Positions 28,561-54,989 of a stretch of DNA of 64,000 nucleotides are shown here, one piece after another (position 1 is the stretch's first letter; every line of letters starts with the position of its first letter). The notes beneath the pieces were generated by a model. It ran no database searches. It was not told where the DNA came from and was given only the letters and a program-made list of their open reading frames with translations. A program made the translations under genes and the position numbers. The DNA lies in NCBI GenBank assembly GCA_963575745.1, contig CAUYUJ010003914.1, positions 1 through 64,000 on the forward strand, in the 5' to 3' direction. Origin of the DNA: Prorocentrum cordatum (lineage: Eukaryota; Sar; Dinophyceae; Prorocentrales; Prorocentraceae).

Positions 28561-28591
<31 letters not shown>

Positions 28592-28600
28592 TACTCAGAA
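28250..28600 (+). repeat. C-rich left arm of an inverted repeat structure
   Basis: Long C runs with three copies of GGGGTCACTACCGGTTTCGAA-type wording at about 28419, 28479 and 28543, spaced ~60 bp. The right arm at 29270-29435 carries the complement. Confidence 0.8.
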
Positions 28601-29260: not shown

Positions 29261-29264
29261 TTTC

Positions 29265-29435
29265 GAGAGGGGGGGGGGGGTTCGAACCGGTAGTGACCCC
29301 CCCCCTTTTCATGATGAGCAGGGGGGGGGGGGGGGGGGGGGTTCGAACCGGTAGTGACCCCCCCCGGTTTTCCGGAGGGGGGGGGGGGGGGGGAGGGGTT
29401 CGAACCGGTAGTGACCCCCCCCGGTTTTCCGCCAG
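29265..29435 (-). repeat. G-rich right arm of the inverted repeat structure
   Basis: Three copies of TTCGAACCGGTAGTGACCCC (about 29281, 29342 and 29400), the complement of the left-arm unit. Confidence 0.8.
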
Positions 29436-32479: not shown

Positions 32480-32802
32480 TACAGGCCTGGGACAAAAGTA
32501 GCGAACACTCATGCCACATCCAGCGGTCAACGCCTCCCCCCCAGGTTCAATGTTCAAAGCTGGCAGTGGGTCTGATGAATTGCACTTCGACTGCAGTCTC
32601 GCCCGCGCGCGCCAACTTTGAATCCGGAGGGAGAGGTGACCGTTTTATGATTCGGCGTTTCGTCGACATTGGGCGCAACGGGGTGGGAGGGGGAGGGTCT
32701 GGCTCCGGACCTCTGCTTGATGCCACTGTTTGCAGCCCCGCGTCCTAGGGGGGACAGCCTTCACCTGCTCAAAACAGGCGCCCAAAAACAGCCAAGATCT
32801 AC

Positions 32803-32808
32803 TCCAGG
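32803..32808 (+). other. Target-site duplication, left
   Basis: TCCAGG, repeated exactly at 54785-54790. Confidence 0.85.
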
Positions 32809-32852
32809 GTTGTGAGGGCGAGCGCCTCAGAGAGGAGGGGTTCGTATGGAAA
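32809..32852 (+). repeat. Left terminal inverted repeat
   Basis: Begins GTTGTGAGGGCGAGCGCCTC and ends TTCGTATGGAAA. Matches the complement of 54741-54784. Confidence 0.9.
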
Positions 32853-32937
32853 TCGTCGAATTATGAAAAAATTATGAAATAATTATGAAAAAATTATGAA
32901 AACGCTGAAACATGGAATTGTACAAAAATTGTCGACG
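32853..32937 (+). promoter_or_regulatory. AT-rich subterminal region, left
   Basis: Four AATTATGAAA-type repeats, then AATTGTACAAAAATTGTCG. The AAAAATTGTAC/G word recurs inside the right end and at 43790-43890. It may be a transposase or host-factor binding region; this is inference. Confidence 0.5.
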
Positions 32938-34551
32938 CCATTTCTGAAATTGCGAGAGCCGAGATTGCTCTGTCCGCAAGACCGCCGCATGAATGCGAGG
33001 AGGTAAGACCTCCTTTGGGATGATCCGCTAAAACATCGTTCGCCGATGATGGTCACCCGCGGAAGCGCGTTGGCGTTTCGTAGGTTCGTTTTACACAAAT
33101 GAACGAAATGCTTGGACGGGTTGAACAGGGGCTGGGCGATTTCGACGCGAGGTCGCAGCGCCCATCATGGAGGGAAGCGCTTAACGTTGCATTATTAGTG
33201 TATGACGCGTATTGAACCATCAGCGTTTCGCGTTTGATGCCAGAGGTCGCGCTTGAGATCGGCCAACATCGGATATTTAGACGCTACGTAACGTTAGCTT
33301 GTCATTATAAATGACTAGCGGGTTCGCGTTGCGCGGGGCCGACGCTCCGCGTAATGGGCGCGCGCCGCGGCACAGCAAGTTGGGCGTCGTTTGATCAGGG
33401 TGGGTGGGGTTTCTGAGTAGAGGAAAGCATCCTTTGCAGTGGGGTGTGTGTCGGGGGGGCGGGGTGGATGGGGCGCGAGTAGTGCGCGTTGGTTGTGCGG
33501 GGTGGCGCGCGTCTTTGGGTGGCGGGGGGATCGTTGTGGCGGCCGTGGGGGTGCTCGCGTGGTTGTGGTGTGTGGTATAGGCGTTGTTATGCATGGCGGT
33601 TGCGTGCATGCGCGCGTTTGCGCGTGCGTGCGCGCGTGGGGTCGCGCGTGCGTGTAAGCGTCAGGGGGCGTATGTCTGTCGGTGGGAAGTCTGCGGGAAG
33701 GACAAGGTGGTCGGGCTGGGCGGGCGCGCGGCAGGGTCAGTTTATTGTGGTCGCGGTGGGCGCGGGGTGGAAGAGGATGGGCCGTGACCATTATGCGGCG
33801 CGCCTGTCTCCTCAACACGTAACAAAATGCGCGGCCACAACGGCAAGGACGCGGATTCTGGTTTGCCCAGGGAAGTACTCTTTTTGTGTTTTGTCTTTTT
33901 TTTCTTTTGGCGAGGAGGAGGGGGAGGAGAGGGGGGGGGAGGGAGAGGAGGGGGAAGCTAACGTAGCATAACCACTGTGATCTAGGTCCACTAGCACGGG
34001 GCAGGGCCTGTCAAATGTTTTCCATGTGTACAAAAACAAAGGCTGGGGCTGCGGTCGTCTTGGCGCGTCTAGGTTCCCCAAGAGCAACGCCAAACGTTCC
34101 CGCCCCCCCTCCGCTAGAAAGCAATCGGGCGTCCCTGGTGTTTGGCGTTCCTGGTCCAATTGTGTCCGTGGCGGTCCTGCTAAAGCGTCGGCCCTCAGAG
34201 AGGGAACCGCGCTGTCAGGGCTGCCACGGGCGCAAGGGCGACTGGGGGCGCCTCGCCAAGGTTCGTTCGCCAAGTAGTGTTAAATTGTCACGGAGTCATT
34301 GTGTTATTGTTCGCTTCGCAGTCGTCTCTGCTCCTGTGTCCTGAAATCACTTGTCCTTCGAATGCAGCTTAGGCACCGTTCAGATGTCGATTTGTTCACG
34401 TTGATGTGTTTCAAGGATATGTTGTAAGAACCTGGTGAGGGGAATAACGCTTAATATCATGACGTCCCGTGTTCGAGTGGCAATTTGTTTGTGATCGTTT
34501 TGGCATTGTGGCTCAAAGCGGCCTTCGAGTTGCGACTCCAATGATGTTTCG
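32938..34551. other. Left flank of the transposase-like gene
   Basis: No convincing gene. 33430-33770 is GT/GC-biased with alternating purine-pyrimidine GTGCGTGCGCGCG stretches. A short frame near 34015-34344 ends with CQGCHGRKGDW and could be an upstream exon, but I cannot connect it. Confidence 0.4.
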
Positions 34552-35868
34552 GTGATCCCGATTCCAGCGATTTCCATATCTTCGCGCTGCGGCGCTTTCC
34601 ATGTACACCAGTGGATGATCATGTTCAATGTGTTTCTCCACTTTGCGACGCTGATTCCGCTCAGTGCCGCGCTCCGTCTTCCATGTGAGACATTCTATTC
34701 CCCGTGCTGTGCAACCTCCTTGATGAGAAAGTCTTGGGGCCACAAGCCGGATGGCGCTCACTGCGAGAGTGACGCTCGGAGGCGATCTTGGGGCACGGCC
34801 GTTTCATCCTGGCAACATCGCAGGACTACGTGGGCTTCCTCGGAGCTGGCCAAAGCTCGACGGTCTTGGTCTAGTCACGCGTCTCTCGGCGATGCTGATG
34901 GTGACGGCCCCGATCCCGACGAGGTCACGGCTTCTCTCGGCGATGTTGATGGTGACGGCCTCGATCCTCATGGCCTAATCGATTATGGTGGCGGCCTGTT
35001 TGGGCTCCCGACGCCAGAACCAGAAGACGCAGATCTGGATCGCGATGGCGACGTCCGTGCAGGTGCCGATAGTGTTGCTCACGGTATTGTTGCTCACGAT
35101 GGTGTTGGTAGTTCTAGCGTTGCTCACGATGATGTTGCAGTCGCCATTGCAGGACCAATTTGCAATTTGACTCATCAGATCAGTGTTGGTTTGGCTGCGA
35201 TTCGTAATCCTAAGAAGCTTGTCAGTGACATTGTTGATCATGGCAATGACATATTATATGGTGAACAGTTTCTCATGAGCTCAGTTGCGCTCGCGAGTAG
35301 GATGGGCGTGTACAAGCAGCTGCCGTCTGTTCGACGTATCCAACTGGCAGCCGCTGGTCTCGCTTTGCAGGCATATATGCACAAATCCCTTCTCGAACAT
35401 ATGATAAGAACTGTGACTCGAGATGGAGGTCAGCCCGTTATTCTTGTGAAGCAGGTTCGTTACGACGAGACCCCGATGAGAATCAATGTGAAGGATTCGA
35501 ACACGTCATCAAAGTCTGGGGCACTTGTAGATGCTGCTGCGACTTCCACCGACATCCCCAAGTTCTTGGCAGATTTCTTGAAGATGGAGTCGTACGATGC
35601 GGTGCCTGCGAAATTGCTTCAATCCGAGTGGCGAGTCTCAGCGTTATTCCGCATGCATTCTGGTGAGTATGTGTTGGTGAGTTTCGATGTTTTCACCCCA
35701 GTGCAGGCCTTGGCGTCGACGTCGGCAGAAGCTTATGTGGAGGCACTTTCTCGAACTGAGCCTGACTTGGGACCGTGCGAAAAATTATATCATTGCCTTC
35801 GGCCGAGTCCGCTACCGTGCCAGCGCGGAAGGGTCGTGATTTCGGGTGTTCTCTGGCATGTCCCCTGA
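34552..35868 (+). CDS. DDE-transposase-like gene, exon 1 (approximate ends)
   Basis: Open frame of 438 codons. The N-terminal part (to ~190) is low-complexity and acidic with DADGDGPDPDE repetitions, so the true start is uncertain. From ~205 it is globular: a helical region, then VKQVRYDETPMRINVK at ~299-314, whose aspartate (codon at 35464) fits the first catalytic acid of an RNase H-like transposase. The frame stops at 35868, but the natural exon probably ends earlier, near 35,800 after ...GPCEKLY, because the protein resumes with RALRLSCTDGD at 36290. The family assignment rests on motif pattern, not on a database match. Confidence 0.6.
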   Translation: MIPIPAISISSRCGAFHVHQWMIMFNVFLHFATLIPLSAALRLPCETFYSPCCATSLMRKSWGHKPDGAHCESDARRRSWGTAVSSWQHRRTTWASSELAKARRSWSSHASLGDADGDGPDPDEVTASLGDVDGDGLDPHGLIDYGGGLFGLPTPEPEDADLDRDGDVRAGADSVAHGIVAHDGVGSSSVAHDDVAVAIAGPICNLTHQISVGLAAIRNPKKLVSDIVDHGNDILYGEQFLMSSVALASRMGVYKQLPSVRRIQLAAAGLALQAYMHKSLLEHMIRTVTRDGGQPVILVKQVRYDETPMRINVKDSNTSSKSGALVDAAATSTDIPKFLADFLKMESYDAVPAKLLQSEWRVSALFRMHSGEYVLVSFDVFTPVQALASTSAEAYVEALSRTEPDLGPCEKLYHCLRPSPLPCQRGRVVISGVLWHVP

Positions 35869-36289
35869 GTTCTCTGGGGGTGCTCCTGAAGCTAGGGCTG
35901 ATGTCTCCTGGTACTGTTTGGGGGTATCTTGGATTCTTCTAGGGTCAGCCTGATGGTTGCTGAGGGCGTTTGGGAGCTCCCTGGGAATGTCGCGGGGCCT
36001 CTTCAGGTTTCTCAGCGCTGGGGGCGTGTTAGGGTGGGGACTCTGGGAGCGGGTGGTTTCGCGCGCTCCTTTCTTGGGCCAAACGCTGTCTCAAGGTTGG
36101 TTAAAGGCTTCTAGGCACCGAACACTCATTCGGGGAGTAGCGGTAAGATACGGAGCGCTCACATGGGCCTGCTGGGGTTCCCGAAGGGCTCCTGGGGATC
36201 CAGTTGGGTCAGCCCTTGGCTTGAGAGGGGAAGCCAGATGACCAGACAGTAGCCGAATCAATGCCAAAAGTCTTTGCTGCGGATTTCAG
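35869..36289 (+). other. Intron 1 of the transposase-like gene (approximate)
   Basis: Non-coding G-rich sequence with repeated CTGGG and GGGGC words resembling a decayed minisatellite. The likely acceptor is TTTCAG ending at 36289. I could not place the donor exactly; it lies at or before 35,868. Confidence 0.5.
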
Positions 36290-37537
36290 AGGGCTCTTCG
36301 ATTATCTTGCACTGATGGTGATAGTGCCGTGAGAAAAGCTGAAGAATGCACTGCGATACTCAATGGGTACCCTACGTTGCATACCACATGCCATTCTCAT
36401 AGGTGGGCTAATGGTAATAAAAACGTTGCTAAGCTTCATGATGCTGATGTGTCTGCCATCGTCAACTGGAGTCTTGCTCTCAACCAGCCTGGTGCAATGA
36501 GGATTTTTCGGCAGGTCGTCCGAGACATCATTGATGAGAAGTTGCGTATCATAGATGGTGTACCTCCTCCGTGGTATCGCGTCCATCAGCGTGCTGTCCT
36601 TGAGTGTTTCTGCAGTGGTAAGCACAACCTCGGGCGCAGGGCAGTGCTGTCTTTTCTTGCTAATGGTAACTGGGAGAATACGGATGTTGTTGAACACTGG
36701 ACCATGGGAGATCCCAGAGAGGAGAAGGACGTGCGACATTGGTTTCTTTCATATCTCGTGAAAGCTCTATGTGGCTCTGCTCCCAAAATATTTCCGAGAT
36801 CCAGGTGGACTGGCGCTGATTTGACTCTTGATTCTCTCGGTATCCTGGATGGCGTACATGGGCTTGGCATGCCCGCTTTCCTCAGATTTACCATCATCAT
36901 GAACAGAGGTGCTGTCCCGAAATCGTTGCTGCCTGCTGCTGGAGGAGGTGCGGTCGCGGCCCCAGCCATCCTGGACGCACGGCCTGTCGTCGACGATGCG
37001 GGCAAGCCTGAGGATGAGAAGGACGAGGGGCATGACCAATCGCACGCCGCCAACGGCATTCAAAACCATGAGAAGGAGAACAACCACCAGAGGGAGTTTG
37101 CTGCGAGATGGTTGTTATACGAATCACCTCATGCCGTTGTCATCGCGCTGCGGGTCACGATGGAGCCACTTCGCGTGCTTCTGAAAGATCTTTTGACGTT
37201 GTCGGGGTCAGCTTGGGAATTCCTGGAGCGAGAGAAACACTTCGACAAATCCAAGTCAGATGGTTTCGGTGACCTTCGTCAAAGAGGCTACCGCATGCTC
37301 ATTGCAGCTCAGAACGTGTATGAGGACCGCTGCATAGTTTCACTTTCGAATTTGTTCTTCTCCAAGGATGTTTGGGAGGCAGTGCCGAACGGATATCGCA
37401 GAGCAGACGTTCAACAGGATTGTTTCAGACTTCTGTCTCGTGCCGCTGCTGAGGCGCAGCACTACATGGTTGACCACCACCAGGGGTACCCCTACAAGAT
37501 GGCCAGGCTGTTCGAGGACCTTTCGTTGGCAGAAGAG
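36290..37537 (+). CDS. DDE-transposase-like gene, exon 2
   Basis: 416 codons open from the likely acceptor. It starts RALRLSCTDGDSAVRKAEE, where the aspartate of TDG (codon at 36314) is a candidate second catalytic acid. TTCHSHRW at about residue 38-45 contributes a Cys/His cluster. A helical region with conserved-looking RRAVLSFLANGNW follows, then a charged, Ala-rich insert (around 36950-37080) and a second helical region. It ends LSLAEE at a GAG/GTC junction. It has no start codon of its own and reads naturally only as an internal exon. Confidence 0.65.
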
Positions 37538-37806
37538 GTCCGAGGGAAGTAACATGCCTTTGATAAGGTAGCTTGAAGGATAGGAGCGTTGGAGGAGATA
37601 GGAAAAACGGAGGCTGGATGAAAGGGGAGGTGGATGAGGTCTGAGAGGATGAAGGCGAGAAGGATGGAGGAGGGCTTCTGGAAGAAAAGAGGCAAGATGC
37701 GGGGGGGTCTTCCGTTTACTCCTTCCCTGCATCATCCTAAGCATCACCCTCTCTCACACCTCGAACCCAGTCAACCATTTTTGTGCGTACGTTTGCGCAC
37801 CCTGAG
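37538..37806 (+). other. Intron 2 of the transposase-like gene
   Basis: 269 nt. Donor GAG|GTCCGA and acceptor CCTGAG|GTCAAG give a GT-AG intron in phase 0. Removing it joins two open frames. Both junctions read GAG|GTC, so a short direct repeat flanks the intron. The interior is purine-rich then mixed. Confidence 0.65.
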
Positions 37807-40131
37807 GTCAAGTCCGACTGCCGTGGCATGAAGGACTCTTGGAGTGCAGATTTCTTTGATCGCCATGCGGGTAACTTAACCTCGAATGACATGGCAGTCG
37901 AGATGTTAACTGTTCTTCTCTTGACGATATGCGATCAAGCACCAGTTGAGGCAACTCACGCATCGCTTCGCCGATGGCTCCACGGTCTGTCTGTGCAGAC
38001 GCACGTCCCGCGACATGAGTTTATCAGTGCTTGTCGCCTTATCCAAGGCTTCCGCAGGCGATTGAAGGTGACTCGGCCAGGCGGTTCACGAGGGCTTTTT
38101 CCCAAGAAGGGTCGTGAGTCTGGCAGGGCAGCACCGCCGCGGAAGGTGCGCAAGCCTGGTGGCGTCCAGAGGGCTTTTTTCAGCGAGCAGCTTTCGCTTC
38201 CTGGCCCTGCAAAGACGATGGGCGAGCTGCACGCCGAACTCAAGCGCATTCGAACTGAGGAGCCTGAGCGGTTCGCAGATCTCCTGGAGAAGGGGCAGGA
38301 CGCAACCGCTCGTCATCGCCTGCACGGCGTTGACCAGCCCTTTGGGCCAACTAAGAGGCAGCGGCAGCGCGCTGAACGCCAGGACGCTGCGCGAGCTGCA
38401 TCACTCCTCGGAGACAGCGGTGGCGCAGGAGCATCTGGGGCTCTCGTCAGGTTTGCGCCAGGGTCGGAGCTCGAACTATCATCTTGGAATGCTGTTACAG
38501 ATGTGATGGCAACTGCCAGGGCTGCTAGGAAGTCAGAGAAGGCAGCGAGCGCTGCCCGCACCAAGCGGCTCGAGGAGTATATGAACAGCCAACTGGACGT
38601 CATCAGCTCGAGGTTTCCTGGCCTTGCAGACCTCGACGTGCCCGCGACAGACTTTGTACCAACGCCTCCATTATCAGAGCTCTTCACGCACTGGGAGTTC
38701 AGCCCAATTGAGTTGCTAGAGAAGGCGAAGGAGATTACTGCCCTTAGCAGGCACACGCCCCTCGGCCAGGGCGTGCATGATGCCATCCTGCGTGATTGGG
38801 TACGAGCGCACGAAGTGGTGCAGCGCGGTGCAGCTAGCGAGCCTCTGCCAGATCGCGACAAGAAGCCCGTTTGTTCTATCTATGGCACGTGCCTATGCCA
38901 CGGTGACGGCTTGGCGAGGTGGACAATGCGGGAGAACTATCGCAAGAAGGCTTGGGGCAGAGAGTTCAGTCCATCGCTTCGCCCTGGCGCTCGTGAGATG
39001 GTGACCGACGCCAAAGTATTCGCAGTGTTCGTTGCCACTTCGCGAGTGGCAGACCCCGCCGATGGGCCTCCGAAAGTTGTCAGCCATTGGTGGTGTCACA
39101 TTGCCAAGCAACAGATCTCGCCTCACAAAGCAATTTTTCATATCATGGACGGTCCATGTGTGGCCTTTGATGCAGACTGCGTTGTTGCTCCTGGGCAGGA
39201 GATCACGCTTCGCCCTCGCGCGGAGTTCGAGAACGATGTCGTTGCCATGAATCGTGTGGATCGTTCTTTCAAATGGATGGTGACTTATTTCGTCCTGATG
39301 TCCGACATGCGCCCAGTTGCCTCCGTCACTCCTAGCTGCATCACAGTGGTTCCGCTGTCTGGCGCGCTGCTGCGCACGATCTGGCCGCCGCGGTCGGGTT
39401 GCGCCTCTAATCGGGCATCGTGGGGGCAGCGCCCGCCCGACGACGGCTCTGACCCTTCCGATGGAGACTTGCCTGCTGCTGAGCTAGACAGCGAACCCGA
39501 CCGCGAGCCTGATCTGGTGCCCGACGGCGACGGCGCAGCATCGCCGCATCGGTCGGAGTCGGAGTCCGAGGACAGCCCGACCAGCGACGACGGCGACCCT
39601 GCTGCCATGCTCGATGGTGAGGGCGGAGGCGGTGACGAGAGCAAGGGCGATGATCCTGAGCCTCCGCCGCCGCCGCCGCCGCCGCCTCCTGCTCCACCGC
39701 CGGAGGAGGGCCCTCCGCCCGCTGGCCTTGGCGGCGGCGGCGAAGGCCCCAGCGGGGGGCCTGCTGGGCCGAAGAATATGTTGAATCCAACGGTGCATGT
39801 GCCTGGCGGCTACATCGTGTATTATCATGCGAGTGGAGATTTCTATGGTTACTGTAGCAACCGCGAAGAGCACGGCAGATGCCAGATCACGCGGACTGCG
39901 CGCCCTGGGCGCAGAGCGGCCCAGGGTAGGCCATTGGGTTTCATTGCGGCGTGGCTTGCCCAGTGCAGGTGCGCAGCTTTCCCAACGAAGTTTTTACACT
40001 TGCGCGCCTGCCAGCCTGCCTTTGCGGACCGCGCGGCGGCGCGCCAGGCATTAGAGCAGCTGCCTGACGCGGAGACCCTGCTCAGGCACGAGCGGGCGCT
40101 GCGCGACGGAGAGGGCCCAGAGCCCGCTTGA
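37807..40131 (+). CDS. DDE-transposase-like gene, exon 3 and C-terminus
   Basis: 775 codons to the TGA at 40129. Early in the exon, CDQAPVEATHASLRRWL carries a glutamate (codon at 37948) in the position expected for the third catalytic acid, followed by VQTHVPRHEF. Next come a basic Arg/Lys-rich region (~38090-38170), a Glu/Arg-rich helical part, and a second globular domain at ~38870-39390 with several Cys/His (CSIYGTCLCHGDG, HWWCH). A long acidic, Ser-rich disordered linker (39420-39650), a proline run (39661-39690) and a final Cys-containing domain follow. Lower GC than the flanking spacer. Confidence 0.7.
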   Translation, partial: VKSDCRGMKDSWSADFFDRHAGNLTSNDMAVEMLTVLLLTICDQAPVEATHASLRRWLHGLSVQTHVPRHEFISACRLIQGFRRRLKVTRPGGSRGLFPKKGRESGRAAPPRKVRKPGGVQRAFFSEQLSLPGPAKTMGELHAELKRIRTEEPERFADLLEKGQDATARHRLHGVDQPFGPTKRQRQRAERQDAARAASLLGDSGGAGASGALVRFAPGSELELSSWNAVTDVMATARAARKSEKAASAARTKRLEEYMNSQLDVISSRFPGLADLDVPATDFVPTPPLSELFTHWEFSPIELLEKAKEITALSRHTPLGQGVHDAILRDWVRAHEVVQRGAASEPLPDRDKKPVCSIYGTCLCHGDGLARWTMRENYRKKAWGREFSPSLRPGAREMVTDAKVFAVFVATSRVADPADGPPKVVSHWWCHIAKQQISPHKAIFHIMDGPCVAFDADCVVAPGQEITLRPRAEFENDVVAMNRVDRSFKWMVTYFVLMSDMRPVASVTPSCITVVPLSGALLRTIWPPRSGCASNRASWGQRPPDDGSDPSDGDLPAAELDSEPDREPDLVPDGDGAASPHRSESESEDSPTSDDGDPAAMLDGEGGGGDESKGDDPEPPPPPPPPPPAPPPEEGPPPAGLGGGGEGPSGGPAGPKNMLNPTVHVPGGYIVYYHASGDFYGYCSNREEHGRCQITRTARPGRRAAQGRPLGFIAAWLAQCRCAAFPTKFLHLRACQPAFADRAAARQALEQLPDAETLLRHERALRDGEGPEPA

Positions 40132-43100: not shown

Positions 43101-45045
43101 CACTTGCCAGGTCCAATGCGCGCGCGACACGGGGCCGTCGGAATCGCGCTTACAAGGGCGGCGAGATTCGCTGCGCGTTCAGGAGCTCCGCACTGCGGCG
43201 TTCTCGATGCCCCCTTGCCCGCGACCCGCGCTACCCATTGTGCAATGCCACTCCGCGGCGTAGAGTGAAGGAGCCTTTGCGCGGCGTTTGTGTCGCGCCC
43301 GATCCAACGTTGGTCGCCGCAGCCAAAGCGGCGCGCACGCGCCGCAGGGCGCGCCGTCTACGCGAAATGGTTGCAGCCGCGTTCGCGCTCTTATAGATGA
43401 CGCGTTCTCGGGTGGTAGATTGGCGGGCGGGTGCCCGCTTCAGCGCGCGGCTGTGCCGTGCGCTTGCGTTCGAGTGTTGGCGGGCCCGCCGCCATTTGCT
43501 ATGTGTAAGTGTAATGTCATTCGTTGAGCCAGTGGGCTCCTGCACCAGCTGCGCGCTGCTATCAACGCGGCGCCATGCAGGGGATTGCACAATATTGAGC
43601 TGAACGCGCCAACTCACGCCATTCGACGTCACGTGCATGCGACGCGGTCGCGACACCGAGCATTCAGGACGCAAACCGACGCACGGACACAATCCACCTC
43701 CGTAATTCGAATCGTATCCGTATGCGGAGGCTTATTCAAGGAGGTAATTCAAACGTAATTTAAACGTAATTTAACCGTAATTCAAACGTAAATTGTACAA
43801 AAATTGTACGACCAATTGTACAAAAATTGTCTGAGGAAAATAAGGCATTTAAGCCCACGGAAAAGAATTGTACAAAAATTGTACAGCCAATTGTGCTACG
43901 TACGTTTGGTGCAAATTCCATTGTGTACCTATATTCATAACACAACTAAAAAAATGTCCTGAAATTTTGCAATCTACCCCAGGGGGTCGAAATTCCCTCC
44001 TCACCCGTTGGATTTTTGCTTCAGTTCTAAAAGGACGCGCGCGTCGCGTCTACTCCGCAGCGCCGCCTGCCCGTCGCTGCCCTGCCGTAAATTCGCGTTG
44101 AGCTTCCCAGGAGCACGGTTTGCTTCCGCGTCACATGCGCCAATGCGTCCAGCGCTTTTGCGTGCAGCGCCACGCATCCACGCCAATGTCATCTACCCTC
44201 GTGGCCTGCGCCAGTGCCGCAATGGCCGCTGGGGTCCGCGCGCTGGCGTTTTGCGACGTACCGCGTCGATTCGCACGCCCCCTATGTGCGAATGCCTCGC
44301 TGCGCCCCTCCCCCCCAGCTCTCGCCGCGTCCATCCGCTGCGCCGCGCCCGCTCGCGCGGCGCGATAGAGCCGACGGGTCGGGTCTGAACGGGGCCCGCT
44401 CCCCACCCCCAAAGCACATGGCCATTTGCGCGAAGTCGAAGCGTCGCGCGCGCTGGCGCCTTCGGCGATGGGCACTAACTCCGCTGCCAAGCCGAAACCG
44501 GAAGACGCGCGGGCATCGATTGAACGGGGCAGCTTCATTGCCGATTGCGCTCCGTGCGAATTGCGCAAGGCAAGCAGATTTCTGTCGGGGGCGCGCTCCC
44601 TCGCCCGCGCGACGGCCCGCCCCACTTCCATCTCGCCACCGTCGCCCCCCCCCAACGAACCTGCACCGCGCCAGTGCCGCCGTCCCCGTCGCCCTGCGAA
44701 CCGCTGTGCCGCGCCGTCTCTAGCCCGCCCGCCGCGCGCAGTCCGACCTCTGCCACGCGCCCCCCGCGCGCCTGCCTCTCCGCGGCTCGCGCGCCACGCG
44801 CCCGCGCGGGCAGTCGCTGCCGCGCGCCCCCCCACGGCGTGGCGCGCGCGTGGCGCGCGGAGGTGCGGGTCGGGCGGGGGGTTTGGGTTGTCGTGGGCTT
44901 GGGTGCATGGAGAGGGCTCGGGTTGGACCATCGCGGCAAAGTGGCGCGCGCGCGCGGCGGCGGCCGCCGGTTGGCGCGGCGGCGAGGGCGCGCGAAGCGG
45001 CGGCGGGGGTGCGTCGTCGAGGCGCAGGGTGTTCGAGCCCCATAT
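40132..45045. other. Spacer inside the giant element
   Basis: About 4.9 kb without a convincing gene. A CAC/CAT microsatellite follows the transposase stop (40153-40185). 41.4-45.0 kb is CpG-rich with frames on both strands that shadow each other. 43735-43890 is AT-rich and carries the AATTGTACAAAAATTGTAC word three times. Confidence 0.5.
43735..43895. repeat. AT-rich block with AATTGTACAAAAATTGTAC motifs
   Basis: ACGTAATTTAA-type repeats are followed by three copies of ATTGTACAAAAATTGT at about 43793, 43818 and 43868. The word is nearly self-complementary and is shared with the subterminal regions at 32916 and 54705-54735. Confidence 0.7.
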
Positions 45046-46420
45046 GAGTTCCACCGCTGAGTGTTGGAGGTCTGTGTAGTTCTAACATTCTACGTTGGAG
45101 CTCAAGTTGAGCTCGAACGTTGCATTCTGGAACTCACGTCAAATCAAATTTTCGATGGGGCCCAATTCGGGTTCCAACATCGCATGGTAGAGCTTATTGT
45201 AGTTCGAGCAGTCAATGTTGGAGCTCAAATTGAGGTCTAACGTTCAAAATTAGAATTCAAATTCAGCCTGAACCTTGTATGTTAGAACCCATTTCGACTA
45301 TAACATCATATGTTAGAGCTCAGTCTGAGTTCTTACATTGAACGGTATAGCTCGCTATATTTCTAACATTGAATGTCAGAACTCAAAATGGCATCCAACC
45401 TTGAGTGTAGAACTCAGTATCAATGCAACGTTGAATGTTCGAGCTCAATCTGGGTTTGAACATTGCATGTGGGGGGCGCACTCTAAATCCAACGTTTACT
45501 GGTAGAGCTCAAGTTGGGCTCGAACATTGCATTTTGGCATTCATTTCGGATCTAACACTGGCAGCTAGAGCTCGTTTTGAGTTCTAACATTGAATGTGAA
45601 AGCTCACTGTAGTTCGACCATGCAATGTTAGAACTAAACCAGAGCTCTTACACTGGATGGTAGAATGCAAGTCAAACCGAACATTTGATGTTACGGCTCA
45701 ACTTGAGTTCTAACATTGAATGTTAAAGCTCATTGTAATTCCAACATTCAATGTTTGAGTAGAAGTTGAGCTCCAACACCCAATGTTAGGACTCATCGTA
45801 AATCTAGTTTTGTACGTTAAAGCTCAATTTGAGGTCTAACATTGAATGCAAAGGCTCAGTGAAATTCGAACAGTCAATGCTAGGACTCAAGGTGAGCTCT
45901 AGCACTGAAGGTTAGAACACATTTCAAATCTAACATTGGATGTACCAGGTCAACATGAGTTTAAAGCACTATTGGCACATCACAATTTAGTTCGAACCTT
46001 CAATGTTCGCACTCAGAATCAGCTCTAACGCTGAACGTTGGAACTCGTTTCAAATCGAACAGTGGATAGTGAAGGTCAATGTGGGTTCTAACGCTGAATG
46101 GTAGAGCTCATTTTAGTTCTAACACTTACCCCTATAACTCAAGTTGAGCTCTACCTTTGGATGTTAGGACTCGTTTCATATTTAACGTTGGGTGAGATAG
46201 CCCAATCTGAGTTCTAACATTGAATGGTAGAGCGGGCTCATTTCTGTTACAACGTTCAGTGTTAGACGTTAAACAAACCTCTGACATTGAATGGCAGAAT
46301 CCATGTCGAATCTAACATTGGATGTTAGAGATCAATTTGGGTTCTAGCAATACATGTTAGAACTCATTTTCGTTCTAACATTCAACGATATCTCGTTGAG
46401 TTCTAACATTGAATGTCGTG
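45046..46420. repeat. ~32-bp palindromic minisatellite array (~43 units)
   Basis: Degenerate units combine CTAACATT-g-AATGTTAG with GAGCTCAA/TTGAGCTC. Spacing between well-kept units is a multiple of ~32 bp, for example 45364, 45585 and 45711. Each unit is itself an imperfect palindrome, so the array is a row of potential hairpins. Copies are strongly diverged. No long open frame crosses it. Confidence 0.9.
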
Positions 46421-47117
46421 GCGGAAACAGATCACCCCCATTCAGTGGGCTGCCGAACCACGGCAGGCGCGCGACGAGCATAGATGGGTGTAGCATTGAC
46501 AAGAGCTCACCCTTGATTGCACACGCGTCCGTCAATGCGCCTTGTGCCTCCTATGCGGGGCAGGACGAGTTGGCTCATGCGCGGTATGTTCACGCGCTCA
46601 TGCTGCGGCAACCCAAGCGTAAGGTAATGTTTGGGTGCCGTTGGCGGCATTGGGTGTCTTGGGGTCCTCGGCGTTTCTGGCTGTTCTTGGGCAGTGTAGG
46701 CGTCTGGGCATGATGTAGGAGGCCTTCGCCGTTTCTGGGTGCTCTGAGTGTTTGGGCAGTCTTCGGCATTTGGGACCTGAGGTTTTCTTGGTGAGTGTCT
46801 ACGGGCCTTAGTTGTCTTTGGCTGGTTTAGGGTCTTGGGGTATTGAGTATAGAGGGTGTCTAGGCTGCTTTAAAAGTGTTTGGGTGTTTTGGCCTTGTGG
46901 TCATCTACTAGTTGTTGGTTTTTGGCGTCGGGTGCTCTAGGGTTTCGGGCACTTGAAGGTTCGAGGGCTTCGGCGTGTGAGTCTTTGTCGTTGTTCATTC
47001 GCACGTGTGGTTCAGAACCACACTGGCACAACACGTTGTGTTCCGTGGTATTGCCATTTTTCTCAAAGATGTGCACAGATTTTTCCGTTCTTGTACAGCA
47101 TCCCCAAGGTTGATTCC
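46421..47117 (+). other. G-rich minisatellite spacer upstream of the 291-aa gene
   Basis: 46620-46960 repeats GTCTTGGG, GTTTTGGG and TTTCTGGGTG words like other decayed minisatellites in this window. TTCTTGTACAG at 47090-47100 could be an acceptor for an upstream leader intron. Confidence 0.45.
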
Positions 47118-47993
47118 ATGTCTGAATCCCTTGATGCGAAAGTCCATGGTCGGATTGATATCATCATTCGAGATCCCGACGTGTCAGTTTCCGTTCATAA
47201 GATTCTCAAAACATCGATGCCGCTTACCATTCACTTCTTCGGCAGTAAGATAGACTTCACAGAGGAGGACGCTCGCAAGGTCCGCGATGTCTCCGAGCGC
47301 ATTGCTGCTGAGATCGACGCCGCTGCGTCGAAGGAGGGCACTGGTACGGGACAGCAGTTCCCACCTGCAGCGCCCGAGCAGGAGGTGATCATGAGCCAGT
47401 GGAAGATGTCTATCGTCGAGGACCTGGCGCCTCCTCAGGCTGTGGTTCCTGCCGGAGCACCTGGCGAGCCCCAGCCACCCGAGCCCGCCGCCGAGGCCAT
47501 GGCGGCGCAGCCCAGCGCCGTCCCAGAGCAAGGTCCGCAGCCGAAGACGCCGTGGCTTCAGAAGCTGCGTTCGAAGCCTGCGCAGGTGTTTGGGCTTGGG
47601 TTATTGCCTTCTGCGTCGGGCACGATTGACATCAGCGGCGATAGTCAAGATGATTACGCATCTAGCACAGGCGCTGGGACAGCTGATCCTGGCAAAGGAT
47701 CTGGGGCAGGTGACGCTAGCAACCTTCCTCAGCAAGAGCCTCCAGCACCTCCCGAGCTGCAGGAGCAGTTGTTGAAGGTCGCTGAGAGGAAGAGGACCCA
47801 GCCACAGCAGCACAGTAGCAAGCGATCTCGGTCATCCAAGTCAGCCTTGCCACCTGATCTCCCTGACGAACTGCCGCCCCACGCGGATGAGAACACCCAG
47901 CTCTTCCAGAACCAGGTGGAGCCTTTCGCTGGCCAGCGTCTCGTGACTCCGTCTCAGGTCTTGGGGGAGCTCTCAACGGGAGCTCCATCCTAA
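47118..47993 (+). CDS. Hypothetical protein, 291 aa, in the giant element
   Basis: Not recognised. I chose the ATG at 47118 (MSESLDAKVHG) because protein-like sequence starts there; the open frame extends upstream into minisatellite. Residues 1-70 look folded, with alternating beta-type stretches (IDIIIRDPDVSVSV, PLTIHFFG) and a helix (EEDARKVRDVSERI). The rest is Pro/Ala/Gln-rich and probably disordered, with a basic KRSRSSK patch that may direct nuclear import. It is colinear with the other genes of the element, so an accessory role in transposition is possible but not shown. The frame may continue through an unseen downstream intron. Confidence 0.6.
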   Translation: MSESLDAKVHGRIDIIIRDPDVSVSVHKILKTSMPLTIHFFGSKIDFTEEDARKVRDVSERIAAEIDAAASKEGTGTGQQFPPAAPEQEVIMSQWKMSIVEDLAPPQAVVPAGAPGEPQPPEPAAEAMAAQPSAVPEQGPQPKTPWLQKLRSKPAQVFGLGLLPSASGTIDISGDSQDDYASSTGAGTADPGKGSGAGDASNLPQQEPPAPPELQEQLLKVAERKRTQPQQHSSKRSRSSKSALPPDLPDELPPHADENTQLFQNQVEPFAGQRLVTPSQVLGELSTGAPS

Positions 47994-49754
47994 GCCCGCG
48001 TACTTGACTTGGCATCGATTCGGGGATGGGGAGCTCAGACTGGGAGATGGTTGAACATGGATTGGTGATTGTGGCCCAGTTCCGAGGGCATGCGACGGAG
48101 CAGAGAGTTCGCTCAGAGAGGTGGCAACTTTTTTACACTGCGCCACCGCCGAAATATACAACATACAGCGCTGAGCGCAACAGCATTTGAAGCTCGCAAA
48201 CGCCTCTCGCAAAATAAGGCCAGAGAGGGACTGTCGTGTTGTTGCTAGCCTCGGGAGCCGTGACTGCTCGAAGCTGAGGAAGCTACGGGCAGTGCAGGTT
48301 CCCGAGGCTAGCAGCAATACTCTGCCCTCCCCGCCTTGATCATCAGGATCATCCAGCCTCTGTGCCTCCCCATCTTGGCCATCATGATTATAATAAGTCG
48401 TTGGAGCCTTAAGCGTCTGTAGGTGCTCTGGGCCTTTGGGTTTCCTGGGGTGTCTGGGCGTTTGGAGATATGTGGGTTCTTAGGGCTCTTAGGTGTAGGC
48501 TCTTTAATGACTTAGTTGTCTGTGGGTGTCTGTAGGTGTCTGTAGGTGTCAGTAGGTGTCTGTAGGTAGTAGGTGTCTGGAGGCACTTCAAGGGTTTTAG
48601 GTATCTATAGGTGCTTGTAGGTATTAGGGGTCTTTGGGCTATTTGTCGAGCATCAGGCCACGAGCGCTAGACGCTTGGATGACACGATGTCACATCTCAA
48701 TTCAGGTTCGCTGATCGTGAGGGTAAGTTAGTCTTGGGACCTTAAGTGTATATTTGTGTCAAGGGCCGACGGGCTCAAGCGTTGTTGGGTGTCTAGGGGC
48801 CTTGCGCGTCTATGGGTTGTTTGGGGCCTGAGCCTATGGGGTCTTGTGATTTCCCTGTCGGGCCTAAGCCTAAGGACTCTTGGAGCCTAAGCCTTAGGAG
48901 TCTCAGGAGCCTTCCGTGGTTGAGAATATGTGGCGATACGTCTGGTTTGACAGTGAGGCGATTAAGAATCTATGAGGTGATGCGTCCAGCTTGACAGTGA
49001 GGTGATGCGTACAGCTTGATCGTGAGGGATGCGCGTCCAGTTTGACAGAGAGGCAGTTCTTCACAAGATGATGGGGTTCCATTGCCATCCTGCTTGGAAC
49101 ATTTCCATCCACCTCCTTACCCGCATTTCTGGTATGACCACTTTCATTATTGAGCCAGTTCTTCTTCTCATTCGCCCTCCTGGGGTTGCGAGCGGACATG
49201 CCAGCGGTTTCATTCGAATGTGATGGAGTGGGGCTCCCATTGCTGATGAAGTCTAAGTGGCTTGAGGAGGGCGATGCACGATGCACGAGCAAGCACGGAC
49301 AAACACATGTACATACATCAGCACTTCATGACATCACGAGCGCATCACTGCAACAAAACATGACAACCTAAAAAAAACAAGCATGCAATTGCAGCCGTAC
49401 GCACGCATGACACGCGACCTTGCTAATGAGAGCGTTCACCCCGTTGTCCCCTGGTTGGTGTTCGGAAGGGTCCGATGTGTTGAAACTGACCTTGGTAAAC
49501 CTGCCTAGGGTCACATATTTCTGTCGGAGAGAAGTGCGTGCGAGGAGGAGGAGGATGAGAGGAAGGGGGATGGGAAGCAGGAGGAGGGGGAGGAAGACGA
49601 GCGTAAGCGGACCTCACGTTCTCTTGACTGACTGACTGACTGACTCGAAAGCTTACTGTGTTCAGACTTGTATCCACAGCGTGTTTGTGCTGCAAGTTTT
49701 TGACCCAAGGTCTCTGATATTTACCAGTTCTGCGTCCCGCGCCTGTTTGTCTCT
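47994..49754 (+). other. Spacer with short repeats and a hairpin
   Basis: 48241-48315 is a stem-loop with 15-nt arms (GTTGCTAGCCTCGGG, 14 of 15 paired). 48520-48580 repeats GTAGGTGTCT. 49625-49645 is a GACT tetranucleotide run. 48.4-48.9 kb is otherwise decayed G-rich minisatellite. Confidence 0.55.
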
Positions 49755-51996
49755 ATGGCAAAGAAGGGCTCTGGCAATGCCGCAGCGTCAGAGGGTCGCC
49801 CTGCGAAGAGGTCGAAGGGCAGCGCCTCACAGGAGATGCCTCACTCTTGCATCGGTGGTCAAGGGACCTGTGACAAGCCAGTTGCAGGGAACACTGATCT
49901 GTGCCAGAACCACCTCAACGTTCATGCCCTTGCCTTCGGATGGTTGACGCTGGACGAGTTCAAGCAACAGCTGCGGATCGATTCCGCCTTCAGCAAGCAG
50001 GTCGAGGCTGCCTTGCGCGTGAAGCTGGGCCTCGAGGAGAAGAATTTTTTCGCCGAGGATGTGACCATCGATTGCATCCAGGGCGTGCGGGCTTTCAAGC
50101 GTCTCAAGGGTTTCACCGTCAAGCGCTTCACTGAGGTGTTCGGCAAAACTCCTCAGCAGTGCGGCAAAATGATCAGGGACCTCGACGACGGGAAGGGCGG
50201 GAAATTCAAGGGCGCGTGCTTGGAGGACGAGTCGGAGCCCGACGTGATCTACGAGCTCTTCACGACTACGTTCAAGCATCGTCAGCAGTACAAGCAAATG
50301 GCTGACAATCAGTTGCACGCGACTCAGGCCCAGTCCATTTTCACGAAGGTCAAGCTTGACGAGTTCATAGATAGCAGCCCCTACCACAACGCGGCTTCCA
50401 TGGGCGACATCCGTCATAAAGCATCCCTGAAGGCTGACCGTGAGGAATCTGATGATGATAATGCCAGTGGTGATGACGGACAGAAGTCTCTTGATGGAGG
50501 CGCGCGGACTGCAGTGCCGCTCTTGACAGCAACTCCACCTACAGCAGCACCGAGGCGAGCTTCCAAGGGCGGTGGCAAGGGGCGACGTGGTGCACCCACG
50601 GCGCGCGGCGCTTCAGTGCGAACAGGTCCGAGGGGGCATCCTGGAACGACTTCCGATGCGGGCAGTGCGAATCAGCCGTCTTCTTCTCCAGTGGCATCTG
50701 AGGCCATGGCGCTCGTCCAGGCGAAGATGCATACCACCCAGATCGCCGACTGCTTGCGGAGCAACACTGGTCGTTCGATGGGCGGGGCGGACGTGCTCAA
50801 GGAGAAGCTTCGCAAGATGGGAGCTGTCGTCGAGCTGAAGATCTGGGAGGACCATGAGGATCAGTACGTGGCAGCCCAGAAACTCAAGTGCATGGAGATC
50901 GCGACGGTCAATCGCTCGGACCTGGACGAATGTCTTGCGAAGATTCGCGAAGTTGAGTTCCCAGAGAAGTTTCAGAGAGCCATCCTCGAGCGCTCGGTCT
51001 CCGACCTCGTGGAGGAGCCTGTCCTGGATATCGAGAAGTTCTTCTCCATCATGAATCCGCTGAGCTCGACTGAGCTGACCTTCGACCCCGTGCTCCCGAC
51101 GCTCAGCGCCATCGCCATCAGCCAGGAGGAGAAGGCCAGACTTTTCTCCGACAGGCTGATCGTTCGCTACCTTTTGAAGCTGATCGAGAAGGGTGAGGAT
51201 AAGAAATCTGATGCCGAGAGGTTCGCGCTGTACGCCATCGAGTGGCTCGATACGAAGATTGACGATCAGGATGTGCATATCAGCCCAGAGGTGGACGAGA
51301 TGTTCAGTACTTCCCTCACGATCTGCAAAGCTTTGTGCTGCATCATAGATCACATCAAGGTCGCTGGGAAGTCCGCCGTTTCTCGTTTGGTTGATGCTGC
51401 CAAGAAGCGAGGCGCAAAACATTCCATGGCTGGACTCGTCTTCAACGCGATGAAGAGCAACCAGTGGTATGCCGCACAGTATAAAAAAGTTCATGGACAA
51501 CATCGTAGGCCTCGAGAAGTGGGGCGATGTGATTCACAAGCGCACGATGGAGATCGTGCAGAGCAACTCGATGGATGTGGACCCGTATGTCGTCTTGAGG
51601 GAGCTTGGTGAGATGAAGCGGGATCTTGATGCCAGTGTTTGGCGCCCATACGCTGACTCCATCGAGAACTGGTTGCTCCACAGGTTTAATTTCTGTGACA
51701 TGCGATCGACGGTCAGCGAGGTAACGTCCCCTGCCAAGCAGAAGGAGCTCGCTGACATCATCCTCGACCAGCTTCGCTTGATGAAAGGCTTCTTCCCTGG
51801 CAGGAAGGCCGAGCTCGAGGCTCACGAGGCGACGGGCCTTGACTTGAGGGACTCCTTCGCCAACGGTGAGCTGCTGGTCCAGGCGGTGGAGCTGCTCAAG
51901 CAGTTCACGGTCCAGGACCCCAAGATCGTGCTGTCCCAGAGCCAGTGGGACGAGGTCGCGAAGGTGGTGGCGCTCGTGCCCCAGGCTTTCGCTAAG
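49755..51996 (+). CDS. Hypothetical protein of the giant element, exon 1 (one frameshift)
   Basis: Not recognised. Starts MAKKGSGNAAASEGRPAKRS at a clear ATG. A possible zinc site lies at C32, C39, C50 and H53, then a mostly helical domain to ~215, an acidic and Gly/Arg-rich linker to ~310 and a long helical region. At the A-run 51484-51489 the protein-like reading moves to the +1 frame: the first frame degenerates into QHRRPREVGRCDSQ, while the other continues FMDNIVGLEKWGD to 51996. Reading one A fewer would restore a single frame, so it is a one-base insertion, a sequencing error or programmed slippage. At AAG/GCTTGA (51996/51997) the frame is about to stop, and it joins in phase to 53066. 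Confidence 0.6.
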
Positions 51997-53065
51997 GCTT
52001 GACAGGGCGAGGAGGAAGACGAGGGAGGAGGAGAACACGGGAGGAGGAGGGCGACACTGAGGAGGAGGAGGGGCAGGAGGAAGGAGGAGGAGGAGGAGCC
52101 TGCGGGGAAGGAAACGGGAAAGGCGATGAGAAGGTGAGGGGGGGAGGGGGAGAGGACGCGCGTGAGCAGCAACCGTGGGTATAAAATGCCGGAGGAGGAG
52201 GGAGGAGGAAGAAAGGAGGACGAGGGACGAGGAGGAGGAAGACGAGGAGGAGGAGGGGGAGGAGGAAAAGGAGTAGGAGAAGGAGAAGGAGGAGGGGGAG
52301 GAGGAGGAGGGAGAGGAGGAGGAGGCCGCCTTCGCCTCCCTCCTTCTTTCTTCCTCTTTTCTTCCGCTGATGCTGTTGCTGCTCCTCCTCCTTCTCCTCC
52401 TCCTTCTCCTCCTCGTCTTCCTCCTCCTCCTCCTCCTCCTCCTCCTCCTCCTCCTCCTCCCCCGCCTCCTCCTCCATCCTGCTCCTGCTCCTCCTCCTCC
52501 TCCTCTCTTTGTTTTTCACTTCCCGTCTAGTCGCCCTGCTCTTCCTCATCCGCCTCCACCTCCTCCTCCTCCCCCTCCTCCTCCTCCTCTTCCTCGTCCT
52601 CCTCCTCATCTTCCTCCTCCACGTCCTCCTACTCTTTTTCCTTCCGTCGTCATTCTCGTCGTACTCGTCGTCGTGATCCTCCAGGTGTTCGCTGCCTCCT
52701 CTTCGTTATCCTCGTCCTCGTCTCTATTCCCACTCCCTCCTTCTGCCCCTTCCCCTCCTCCTCCTCCCAACTTGTTTTTCCTCCTCTTCCTTCCATTATC
52801 CTGTATCCACCTCCTTGTTCTCCAATCCTCCTCCTCCCTATTCCTTCAACCTCCTTCTTTTTCTCTCTGTCCTTCTCGTCGTCGTCGTCGTCCCCCCCTC
52901 CTCCTCATCCTCCGTCTTTCTCCTTCCTCCTTCCCTCTTGTCCACCGCCCTCCTCTTTTTCCTCCTCCTCCTCCTCCTCCTCCTCGTCCCCCTCCTCCCC
53001 CTCCTCCTCCTTTTCCTCCTCCTCCTCCTCCTCCTCCTCCTCCGCCTCGCGCCCCTTCCGCCCAG
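51997..53065 (+). other. Putative purine/pyrimidine foldback intron
   Basis: 1,069 nt. Removing it joins ...AFAK to ARATDEFRDEM in frame. The donor is AAG|GCTT (GC type) and the acceptor CCCAG|GCG, so AGGC-type repeats flank it. The first third (52005-52330) is GGA-rich on the plus strand and the rest (52375-53050) TCC-rich, so the two parts are inverted and can pair. The TCC part would serve as polypyrimidine tract. No other ORF in it looks real. Confidence 0.6.
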
Positions 53066-53968
53066 GCGCGGGCTACCGACGAGTTCCGCGATGAGATGCA
53101 GCAGGTGTTCACTGCGTCGCTGGAGCAGCTGACGCTTGCAGAGGATACTGCGTTCGCCGACCTGTGCTCCACGGCGCAGAGGTTGTGGACCAGCATCGGC
53201 CAGTGGGGGGTCAGCCTGGACAGGCTCAGTGCGACGGTGCGCATCCTGGGCTTGACCTCGCGGATGCTTGTGGACCAGAAGGCGTTCCTCGCCACGGGCA
53301 GCACGCCCGCCATCCGCGGGAAGCCTGCTAACGACCGTGCGCTTGTGACAGCCTTTATGGTTGCGACGACTGCCTTCGACGGACTCGAGCCTGCTGCAGA
53401 ACCGCTGCAGCAGAAGGTGGACGCGGCCTTGACGAGCGCCAAGGCGTTGCTGCAGGCGCAGCAGGAGCACGACAACACCGAGGCTCTCCACCAGGCGCAG
53501 GCGTGCTACGAGAAGCTGGTGGCTCTGATGGGCAAACCACTTGGCGAGCGCGAGGTCCCGTGGAGGAGGGGCTTGCTCGGCGACGCGTCCTGGAAGGACT
53601 TGCAGAGCCGAGCCGACGACAAGCTCTTCGTCATCGACGGAGGCCACTTCGATCACGCGCTGGAGTCGTTCAAGGCAGGGGTCCAGCTCCTGGAGGACGA
53701 CCACAGCTTCTACAACAAGAAGGTGCCAGATGAGCTTGCGAATGTGTACGCGTACACATCGGCTGTGGCGACGGTGCACCAGGTCGAGGGCTCGATCTTG
53801 CACCACATGGAGGATGAGGAAACGATGAAGAGCGCCGTCCGCATCAGGCGCGTCGTGAACGCAGAGTTCAAGAAGCTCGAGCAGGCGAAGCTCAGCAAGG
53901 ACGCCCTCCACGAGACCATCCTGGTCGTGGCGGAGCATGCGCGCGAGCACGGCGAGTTGCCGCCGTAG
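53066..53968 (+). CDS. Hypothetical protein of the giant element, exon 2
   Basis: 300 codons and a TAG stop at 53966-53968. It starts ARATDEFRDEMQQVF after the acceptor. Almost entirely helical and charged, with repeats of Leu/Ala heptads (LEQLTLAEDTAFADL, ALTSAKALLQAQQEH), suggesting a helical bundle or coiled coil. The upstream part of the open frame is only translated TCC repeat and has no plausible start, so I treat this as a terminal exon of the gene beginning at 49755, giving a ~1,050-aa protein. No known domain is recognised. Confidence 0.6.
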   Translation, partial: ARATDEFRDEMQQVFTASLEQLTLAEDTAFADLCSTAQRLWTSIGQWGVSLDRLSATVRILGLTSRMLVDQKAFLATGSTPAIRGKPANDRALVTAFMVATTAFDGLEPAAEPLQQKVDAALTSAKALLQAQQEHDNTEALHQAQACYEKLVALMGKPLGEREVPWRRGLLGDASWKDLQSRADDKLFVIDGGHFDHALESFKAGVQLLEDDHSFYNKKVPDELANVYAYTSAVATVHQVEGSILHHMEDEETMKSAVRIRRVVNAEFKKLEQAKLSKDALHETILVVAEHAREHGELPP

Positions 53969-54740
53969 ACGCTCGCGGCTGGATCGCCGCAACGACGGCA
54001 ACAAAAAGGGAGAGGATGAAGAAGAGGATCAGAAGGAGGGAGAGGGGGACGGAGGAGAAGAGAGGAGAGTAAAAGGGAGGGGGGAGGAGGACGAGGAGCA
54101 GGGACGGAGGGAAGGAGGGAGGCAGGCAGGAGGAAACCTAACACCACCCAGGGGGAACACACGGAGGAAGCAACTCGACCGAACGGCTGGCATGAGGCGT
54201 CTAAGCCCTCATGTTCCTGGAGCCTCGGAGCGCCTGGCGCCTGGAGGCCGTGACGCACTTTCACCTCCTCCCTCCTTTGTGCTGCTACTGCTGCCTGTCA
54301 GCTGCCTTCCCCTTTTCTGCTCTTGCTGCTGGTTCTGCTCCTGCCACTCTGACTCCCTCTTTACTTCTCTCGTGCTCTCCCTCCTCCTTCCCTTCCCCTG
54401 CTGCCCTCCTGGCCCTCCTCCTCTTCCCCTGCTGCCCTCCTCCTGCCCTTCCCCTGCTGCCCCCCTGGGGGTGGGAGCAGAGCAGAGGACAGCACGGGAA
54501 GGAAAACAGGAAACAACAGCAGCTTGATGAGCATGATGTTTCGTTGCTTGACTCTCTCTCGTCGGCTGGTCTCTCGCGTAACTGTGGGGGGGCAAGTTTC
54601 CTGGATGACATCGGTCCGCACATCGAGTGGGATAGGCCAAATCGCCTGTGTAATTTTGAGGTATCAAAACCATATTCAAAACCTAATTCCTACATTCACA
54701 CAAAACCATAATTTTCGTACAATTTTTAGCTAATTTATGG
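53969..54740. other. Right spacer of the giant element
   Basis: Purine-rich to 54130, pyrimidine-rich at 54260-54470, then AT-rich from about 54650. The AT-rich part contains TTTTCGTACAATTTTTAGC (54712-54730), related to the subterminal motif on the left. No gene is recognised. Confidence 0.5.
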
Positions 54741-54784
54741 TTTTTCATACGAACCCCTCTCTCTGAGGCGCTCGCCCTCACAAC
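54741..54784 (-). repeat. Right terminal inverted repeat
   Basis: Read inverted it begins GTTGTGAGGGCGAGCGCCTC, as the left end. Confidence 0.9.
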
Positions 54785-54790
54785 TCCAGG
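54785..54790 (+). other. Target-site duplication, right
   Basis: TCCAGG, as at 32803-32808. A G run follows. Confidence 0.85.
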
Positions 54791-54989
54791 GGGGGGGGGT
54801 AAGAGGGCCCGCGCCGATGGGCAAAACAATAAGGAAGAGAACGATCACATTCGGGGGGGAGGGGGCGTGCCCACGACTTGTTCCCCTCCACCGTACGTCC
54901 GCCCCGGACGCTGCCCACCCGCCCCATGCGGCGTCCGCGGACGCGGGAGGTTCTGCGGGCGCGGGCGCGGCGGAAGCGCCTGCGGCGCG

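Follow-up and report, generated by a model that had tools for sequence, protein, structure and literature searches.

The first 64,000 nucleotides of Prorocentrum cordatum contig CAUYUJ010003914.1 (the window, used here for this whole stretch) contain what we interpret as a giant DNA transposon of the cut-and-paste kind, autonomous and mobile in the recent past, with a DDE-type transposase of an uncatalogued dinoflagellate family, an interpretation to which we assign a probability of roughly 0.88. The element is a DNA transposon with terminal inverted repeats (TIRs), possibly of a new superfamily. It occupies window positions 32810-54783 (21,974 bp) and has 43-bp inverted ends, with TIRs that start TTGTGAGG. 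These limits were set because CTCCAGGG lies directly outside on both sides. The original prediction had proposed inverted termini of about 44 bp some 22 kb apart, and self-BLASTN of the window recovers them at 32809-32852 and 54742-54784 (95.5% identity over 44 alignment columns with a single gap, E = 5e-12). It had also read a 6-bp target duplication, TCCAGG. This hexamer is the core of the 8-bp CTCCAGGG, and the 6-bp reading was rejected because other copies show 8 bp. The boundary features are as follows.

32802..32809, no strand: left target site duplication, 8 bp, CTCCAGGG, identical to 54784-54791; the 8-bp length is fixed by other loci.
32810..32852, forward strand: left TIR, starting TTGTGAGGGCGAGCGCCTC; homology with other copies begins here.
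54742..54783, reverse strand: right TIR, from self-BLASTN and other copies.
54784..54791, no strand: right target site duplication, 8 bp, CTCCAGGG, identical to the left copy.

Inverted 14-mer pairs separated by more than 500 bp number 62,364 in the window, most of them presumably from TCC/GGA repeats, and identical 8-bp outer flanks occur in only two places among them, namely at this element and in the region 28563-29341. Twenty Markov shuffles of the window gave a mean of 16.85 inverted 14-mer pairs, none with identical 8-bp flanks. The second region lies outside the element within an imperfect inverted repeat at 28407-29431 (~85% identity, arms of ~170 bp).

Copies were sought in the P. cordatum assembly (4,128,499,153 bases in 21,875 contigs), where the left end has 14 matches and the right end 16, both sets including the opposite ends of some copies. 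Besides the window copy, there are two complete copies of the same family (family 1), on contigs designated C14749 (21,973 bp, 99.79% identity) and C14142 (21,966 bp, 99.50%). In both, the alignment stops at the TIRs on the same end bases and the flanks differ, with target duplications GGGAAGCA/GGGAAGCA in C14749 and CATTTGCA/CATTTGTA in C14142. Across 21,976 aligned columns (11 of them gap columns), private changes number 16 in the window copy, 26 in C14749, and 85 in C14142. With counts this low, the family-1 insertions are therefore recent, and that of C14142 is probably the oldest of the three.

Two further subfamilies, with ends TTGTGATGG... and TTGTGATGC..., comprise elements of 22.8-55.1 kb. 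Subfamily 2 (ends TTGTGATGGAAGACGCC; elements of 22.8-25.9 kb) includes C3747 (24,969 bp, GGTTAGGG at both sides), C17248 (23,386 bp, GCCTAGCC at both sides), C18670 (22,759 bp, flanks GTCCGGAC/GTCCAGAC), and C18304 (46385 to 20513, 25.9 kb, ACGTAACA at both sides), with C3747 holding an extra 1.5 kb relative to the other three. C18991 and C9657 show left ends only within the stretch read. Subfamily 3 (ends TTGTGATGCAACGCGCCCC) includes C14345 (27,225 bp, CACAAGGC at both sides), C13851 (61050-107250, 46,201 bp, CCTTGAGG at both sides, taking of its two left ends the one with the matching flank), and C3634 (9648-64737, 55,090 bp, ATTCTGCC at both sides). Among the 11 loci with both ends read, the duplication matches at 8/8 bp in eight, at 7/8 in two, and is unmatched in one (C13105, also of subfamily 2); this count is separate from the unpaired ends at C314, C847, C13626, C17544, C18991, and C9657. 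A TIR pattern search, whose pattern does not match family-1 ends, yielded 32 rows, 24 with subfamily 2 or 3 letters and eight with other letters, against 12 for the reversed control pattern. In the three other-letter rows that were read (C892, C15533, C13667), the rest of the TIR was not present.

Copies that end exactly at the TIRs and carry 8-bp duplications indicate insertion by staggered cutting. The predicted 22-kb TIR-bounded DNA transposon with multi-exon genes of its own is borne out by three near-identical full copies in different flanks, and by two diverged subfamilies that share its type of end, its 8-bp duplications and, where read, its genes. Further copies with the same boundaries and with differing duplications, which the prediction had said to look for, do exist, the duplications being 8 bp instead of 6.

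Some ends occur in unusual arrangements. C18304 has a second left end (60813), 14.4 kb away, with a flank identical to that at 46385, and left ends with identical flanks are also paired in C18670/C13105 and C3634/C314, a pattern that points either to duplication, tandem or segmental, or to separately assembled alleles. The flank of the inner left end at C13851:90031, GCCGAGTC, equals the 8 bases outside the right end at C17502:25988, as if the two were halves of one insertion on separate contigs.

Within the element, the transposase gene, ORF2, and ORF3 (ORF, open reading frame) all lie on the forward strand, in agreement with the prediction that all genes point the same way. Exon limits rest on sequence conserved in both family 1 and subfamily 2.

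34615..35835, forward strand: transposase exon 1, with YDETP (likely first catalytic D); its 3′-end is possibly up to 45 bp upstream of 35835.
35836..36289, forward strand: transposase intron 1, absent in subfamily-3 copy C14345.
36290..37537, forward strand: transposase exon 2, with TD (likely second D), CxxH, and RSRWTG.
37538..37806, forward strand: transposase intron 2, GT-AG, splice sites conserved in subfamily 2.
37807..40131, forward strand: transposase exon 3, with VEATHASLRR (putative catalytic E).
47118..47993, forward strand: ORF2, 291 amino acids, fast-evolving.
49755..51996, forward strand: ORF3 exon 1, with a 1-bp insertion at 51483 in the window copy.
53066..53968, forward strand: ORF3 exon 2, after a GC-AG intron with TCC/GGA repeats; conservation suggests the join.

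The three-exon transposase gene encodes ~1,600 amino acids with the motifs YDETP, TD, CxxH, RxRW, and ExxHA, and its reading frame is open in the window copy. Codon numbers are constant, at 416 for exon 2 and 774 for exon 3, across the five copies compared (window, C14749, C14142, C3747, C17248). Purifying selection acts on both the transposase and ORF3. Between the window copy and C3747, nonsynonymous/synonymous rates (dN/dS) are 0.257/0.654 in exon 1, 0.093/0.671 in exon 2, and 0.118/0.376 in exon 3; between C14749 and C3747, those of ORF3 are 0.185/0.495 in exon 1 and 0.275/0.557 in exon 2. Relative to subfamily 2, the ratio is 0.14-0.43 in the transposase exons and 0.37-0.50 in ORF3, with C17248 similar to C3747. 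Gene models and rates cover these five copies, without C18304 and without C18670, where no exon-2 end pattern turned up.

A 1.2-kb piece of C14345 (141900-143100), at the expected distance from the left end, encodes transposase with 71% amino acid identity to that of the element, and a single frame runs straight across the position of intron 1. This uninterrupted frame therefore supports intron 1, whose model was set by eye and whose 5′-end could be off by up to 45 bp, so that exon 1 possibly ends that much earlier. Intron 1 was gained or lost within the transposon family, perhaps by an introner. The modelled start of the protein (34615-34680) is a hydrophobic stretch resembling a signal peptide or membrane helix, also present in subfamily 2. 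A nuclear enzyme would not be expected to have such an N-terminus, and the modelled start may be wrong.

Relatives of the transposase were found by protein searches that each scored ~8,000 candidates. A search with the exon-2 protein gave one weak match, P0001 (E = 0.87). A profile of the two subfamilies (two rows) found P0002 (1,093 amino acids, E = 7e-32), and the widened profile added P0003-P0007. P0007 is an unnamed 1630-amino-acid protein of Symbiodinium sp. CCMP2592 with 26% identity to P0002. In the genome, P0002 has at least 77 matches at at least 42 loci, with open frames of 756-1,598 codons and an internal stop in three (C16959, C2192, C17433); the counts are lower bounds because 42 of 3,201 candidates were scored, the window transposase not among them. 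Seven full-length relatives share 33 invariant columns, including YDETP, TD, CxxH (H..C..H), RxRWxG, and ExxHAxxR, so that the D, D, and E positions are conserved throughout. This alignment includes two sequences from family 1 and subfamily 2 and omits the partial P0001 and P0003. The C-terminal GYC..H..C..R..GRPLG..AAWL stretch of exon 3 resembles one in the Symbiodinium relative. Pattern-based scans of IMG/VR and a scan of a prokaryote genome collection returned no relative. The YDETP protein, acting as a DDE transposase, is the most likely enzyme for insertion.

The predicted secondary structure of P0002 runs from a strand with the first D through two strands, a helix, a strand followed by the second D, and a helix to a long, mostly helical stretch with the E in a helix. 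With low confidence, this order would match RNase H-like transposases that contain a helical insertion.

The transposase, ORF2, and ORF3 stand in the same order in subfamily 2. ORF2 shares ~30-32% identity with its subfamily-2 counterparts over 95-179 residues, and 46% over 41 residues in C13105, and ORF3 encodes a product of ~1,050 amino acids. None of the three genes yielded a Pfam family above its cut-off. Both genes are kept beside the transposase across subfamilies and are therefore probably part of the transposition machinery.

The non-coding parts of the element are also partly conserved.

32858..32925, no strand: left subterminal stretch, rich in AT, holding the repeat AATTATGAA four times and ATTGTAC once.
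33439..34326, no strand: block upstream of the transposase gene, 73.7-75.5% DNA identity to subfamily 2; presumably promoter or leader.
43671..44002, no strand: conserved non-coding interior block, with five ATTGTAC in the window copy.
54662..54741, no strand: right subterminal stretch, rich in AT, holding ATTGTAC once, on the opposite strand.

The AT-rich subterminal regions of the original prediction are evident in a GC content of 38% in the first and last 150 bp, compared with 57% in the whole element and 63-64% in the flanks. Its claim that TCC microsatellites are largely absent inside stood in part: TCC/GGA runs are scarcer inside (9 bp/kb) than in the two flanks (39 and 29 bp/kb), yet they are present, and 186 of the 198 bp of interior runs fall in a pair of 1-kb bins that cover the large ORF3 intron, ORF3 being the last gene. 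ATTGTAC, a motif chosen by eye after viewing the sequence and found once more in the flanks, occurs once near each element end in opposite orientations as well as in the interior block, and its repeats are putative binding or control sites. At gathering score the window matches no Rfam family, and it contains no tRNA.

In the mechanism we propose, the transposase would bind the TTGTGAGG ends and perhaps also the repeated ATTGTAC motifs, excise the element, and reinsert it through an 8-bp staggered cut, with the conserved D, D, and E residues as its putative catalytic centre. We favour such a cut-and-paste route over another DNA route, and the family may be active at the present day. ORF2 and ORF3 would travel along, probably with a role in aiding the transposase or in opposing the host.

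Several observations weigh against this interpretation. No Pfam family scored above cut-off in the window transposase exons or in the eight relatives scanned; sub-cut-off rows (Peptidase_M50, E = 0.089, and 6PGD_like, E = 0.12, in the window; LPD39, E = 0.013, in the relatives) were disregarded. No sequence relative of the transposase was found in the PDB, the one hit being Cage-t32-Zn1-HEHE-34 (E = 1.2). An AlphaFold2 model built from six sequences was poor (mean predicted local distance difference test score, pLDDT, 41; predicted template modelling score, pTM, 0.28), and therefore only the strand and helix order was used, as weak support. ORF3 of the window copy is frameshifted by the extra base at 51483, either a genuine mutation or a mistake of the assembly; C14749 and C14142 do not have this base, and their frame is open. 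Between C3747 and C17248, dN and dS are small with no clear constraint, and changes within subfamilies are near neutral, as would be expected for resident copies and without proving activity. C13105 has both ends in unrelated flanks and no duplication. Finally, the 46- and 55-kb elements (C13851, C3634), sized from their ends alone, may hold nested insertions.

Membership of the hAT superfamily, as a giant form with a transposase too diverged for the Pfam hAT models, is an alternative about family placement and is compatible with our interpretation. The 8-bp duplication speaks for it, as do the CxxH after the second D and the invariant RxRW within a long, mostly helical insertion, both hAT-like. 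However, the Pfam hAT models gave no match in the window exons or in the eight relatives scanned, the E lies in an ExxHAxxR motif, the 43-bp TIRs are longer than those typical of hAT, and a BED finger was not reported; we regard membership as possible but tend to doubt it. A Polinton/Maverick or other virus-derived element would account for the TIRs and the giant size, which is typical of Polintons. The duplication is 8 bp, though, and Pfam scans of 16 among the 46 interior ORFs with at least 150 amino acids, and of ORF2 and ORF3 of C3747, gave no polymerase B, integrase, protease, ATPase, or capsid family above cut-off; the original prediction likewise saw no polymerase B or capsid genes. With no such gene in the ORFs scanned, an 8-bp duplication, and the IMG/VR scans also empty, a Polinton or viral origin was rejected as extremely improbable.

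A non-autonomous or composite block, formed by segmental duplication or by movement in trans of an element with captured host genes, would fit the tandem or segmental duplications around some copies (C18304, C18670/C13105) and the failure of ORF2 and ORF3 to match a known domain (no Pfam family above cut-off in those of C3747). Against this, copies end exactly at the TIRs in different flanks with 8-bp duplications, and the order of ORF2, ORF3, and transposase is kept across subfamilies, unlike random capture. We consider this origin very unlikely, and segmental duplication as the sole cause was rejected since the flanks differ. The reading as an autonomous DNA transposon is preferred. A broader proposal, taken jointly, has in our view an even chance of being correct: that the 'YDETP' family is an undescribed superfamily of DDE transposases, widespread in dinoflagellates, in which one clade became giant (22-55 kb) and has two accessory genes that are conserved, plus a block of internal repeats that acts together with the ends during transposition.

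Cut-and-paste elements mostly span a few kilobases. Near-identical 22-kb copies, together with elements reaching 55 kb between perfect 8-bp duplications, demonstrate that transposons of unusual size reside in this genome. A transposase family without a Pfam model, with at least 77 matches at at least 42 loci, may escape current repeat annotation. An excerpt of the P. cordatum paper describes gene models screened against an existing transposon library (PMC10666404). The absence of intron 1 from a related element bears on intron gain, and a transposon with large cargo could become a genetic tool. Elsewhere in the window, outside the element, a 1,615-amino-acid open frame at 14792-19639 on the reverse strand contains an RVT_2 reverse transcriptase domain of Copia type (E = 5.7e-12).

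The undescribed family that the prediction thought possible is supported in that no relative was found in Pfam or PDB and none bears a name, and among the papers listed on giant, dinoflagellate, hAT, and KDZ/Zisupton transposons, on novel superfamilies in Symbiodinium, on the P. cordatum genome, and on introners, no title or abstract opening describes the element. Sequence comparison with hAT, MULE, and KDZ (Kyakuja-Dileera-Zisupton) was made through Pfam models, and their other features are general background. In hAT elements the duplication is 8 bp long, a long helical insertion interrupts a DDE-like triad, CxxH follows the second D, and an RW is conserved. Our element shares the duplication, the CxxH, and the RW, and a triad interrupted in this way is predicted for its transposase; it differs in the points weighed above, in its size of 22-55 kb, and in its two extra conserved genes; we call the mechanism hAT-like without claiming membership in hAT. 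MULEs have a TD and CxxH arrangement and fairly long TIRs, as here, but a duplication of ~9 bp; the element has 8 bp, an RW insertion, and no Pfam MULE match. KDZ elements of fungi and protists are likewise large DNA transposons with large transposases, whereas neither the element nor its relatives matched a Pfam KDZ or CxC model. Polintons, which exceed 15 kb and have TIRs and several genes, as does our element, differ in their 6-bp duplication and viral gene set. Teratorn, as outlined in an excerpt, is also a giant DNA transposon, a 180-kb piggyBac-like one fused with other DNA, whereas our element has a YDETP-type transposase and no viral gene was detected in it. The Symbiodinium protein P0007, known as a protein only and with 26% identity to P0002, shares the YDETP, TD, CxxH, RSRW, and ExxHA motifs and a similar C-terminal GRP(L/I)G..AAWL stretch.

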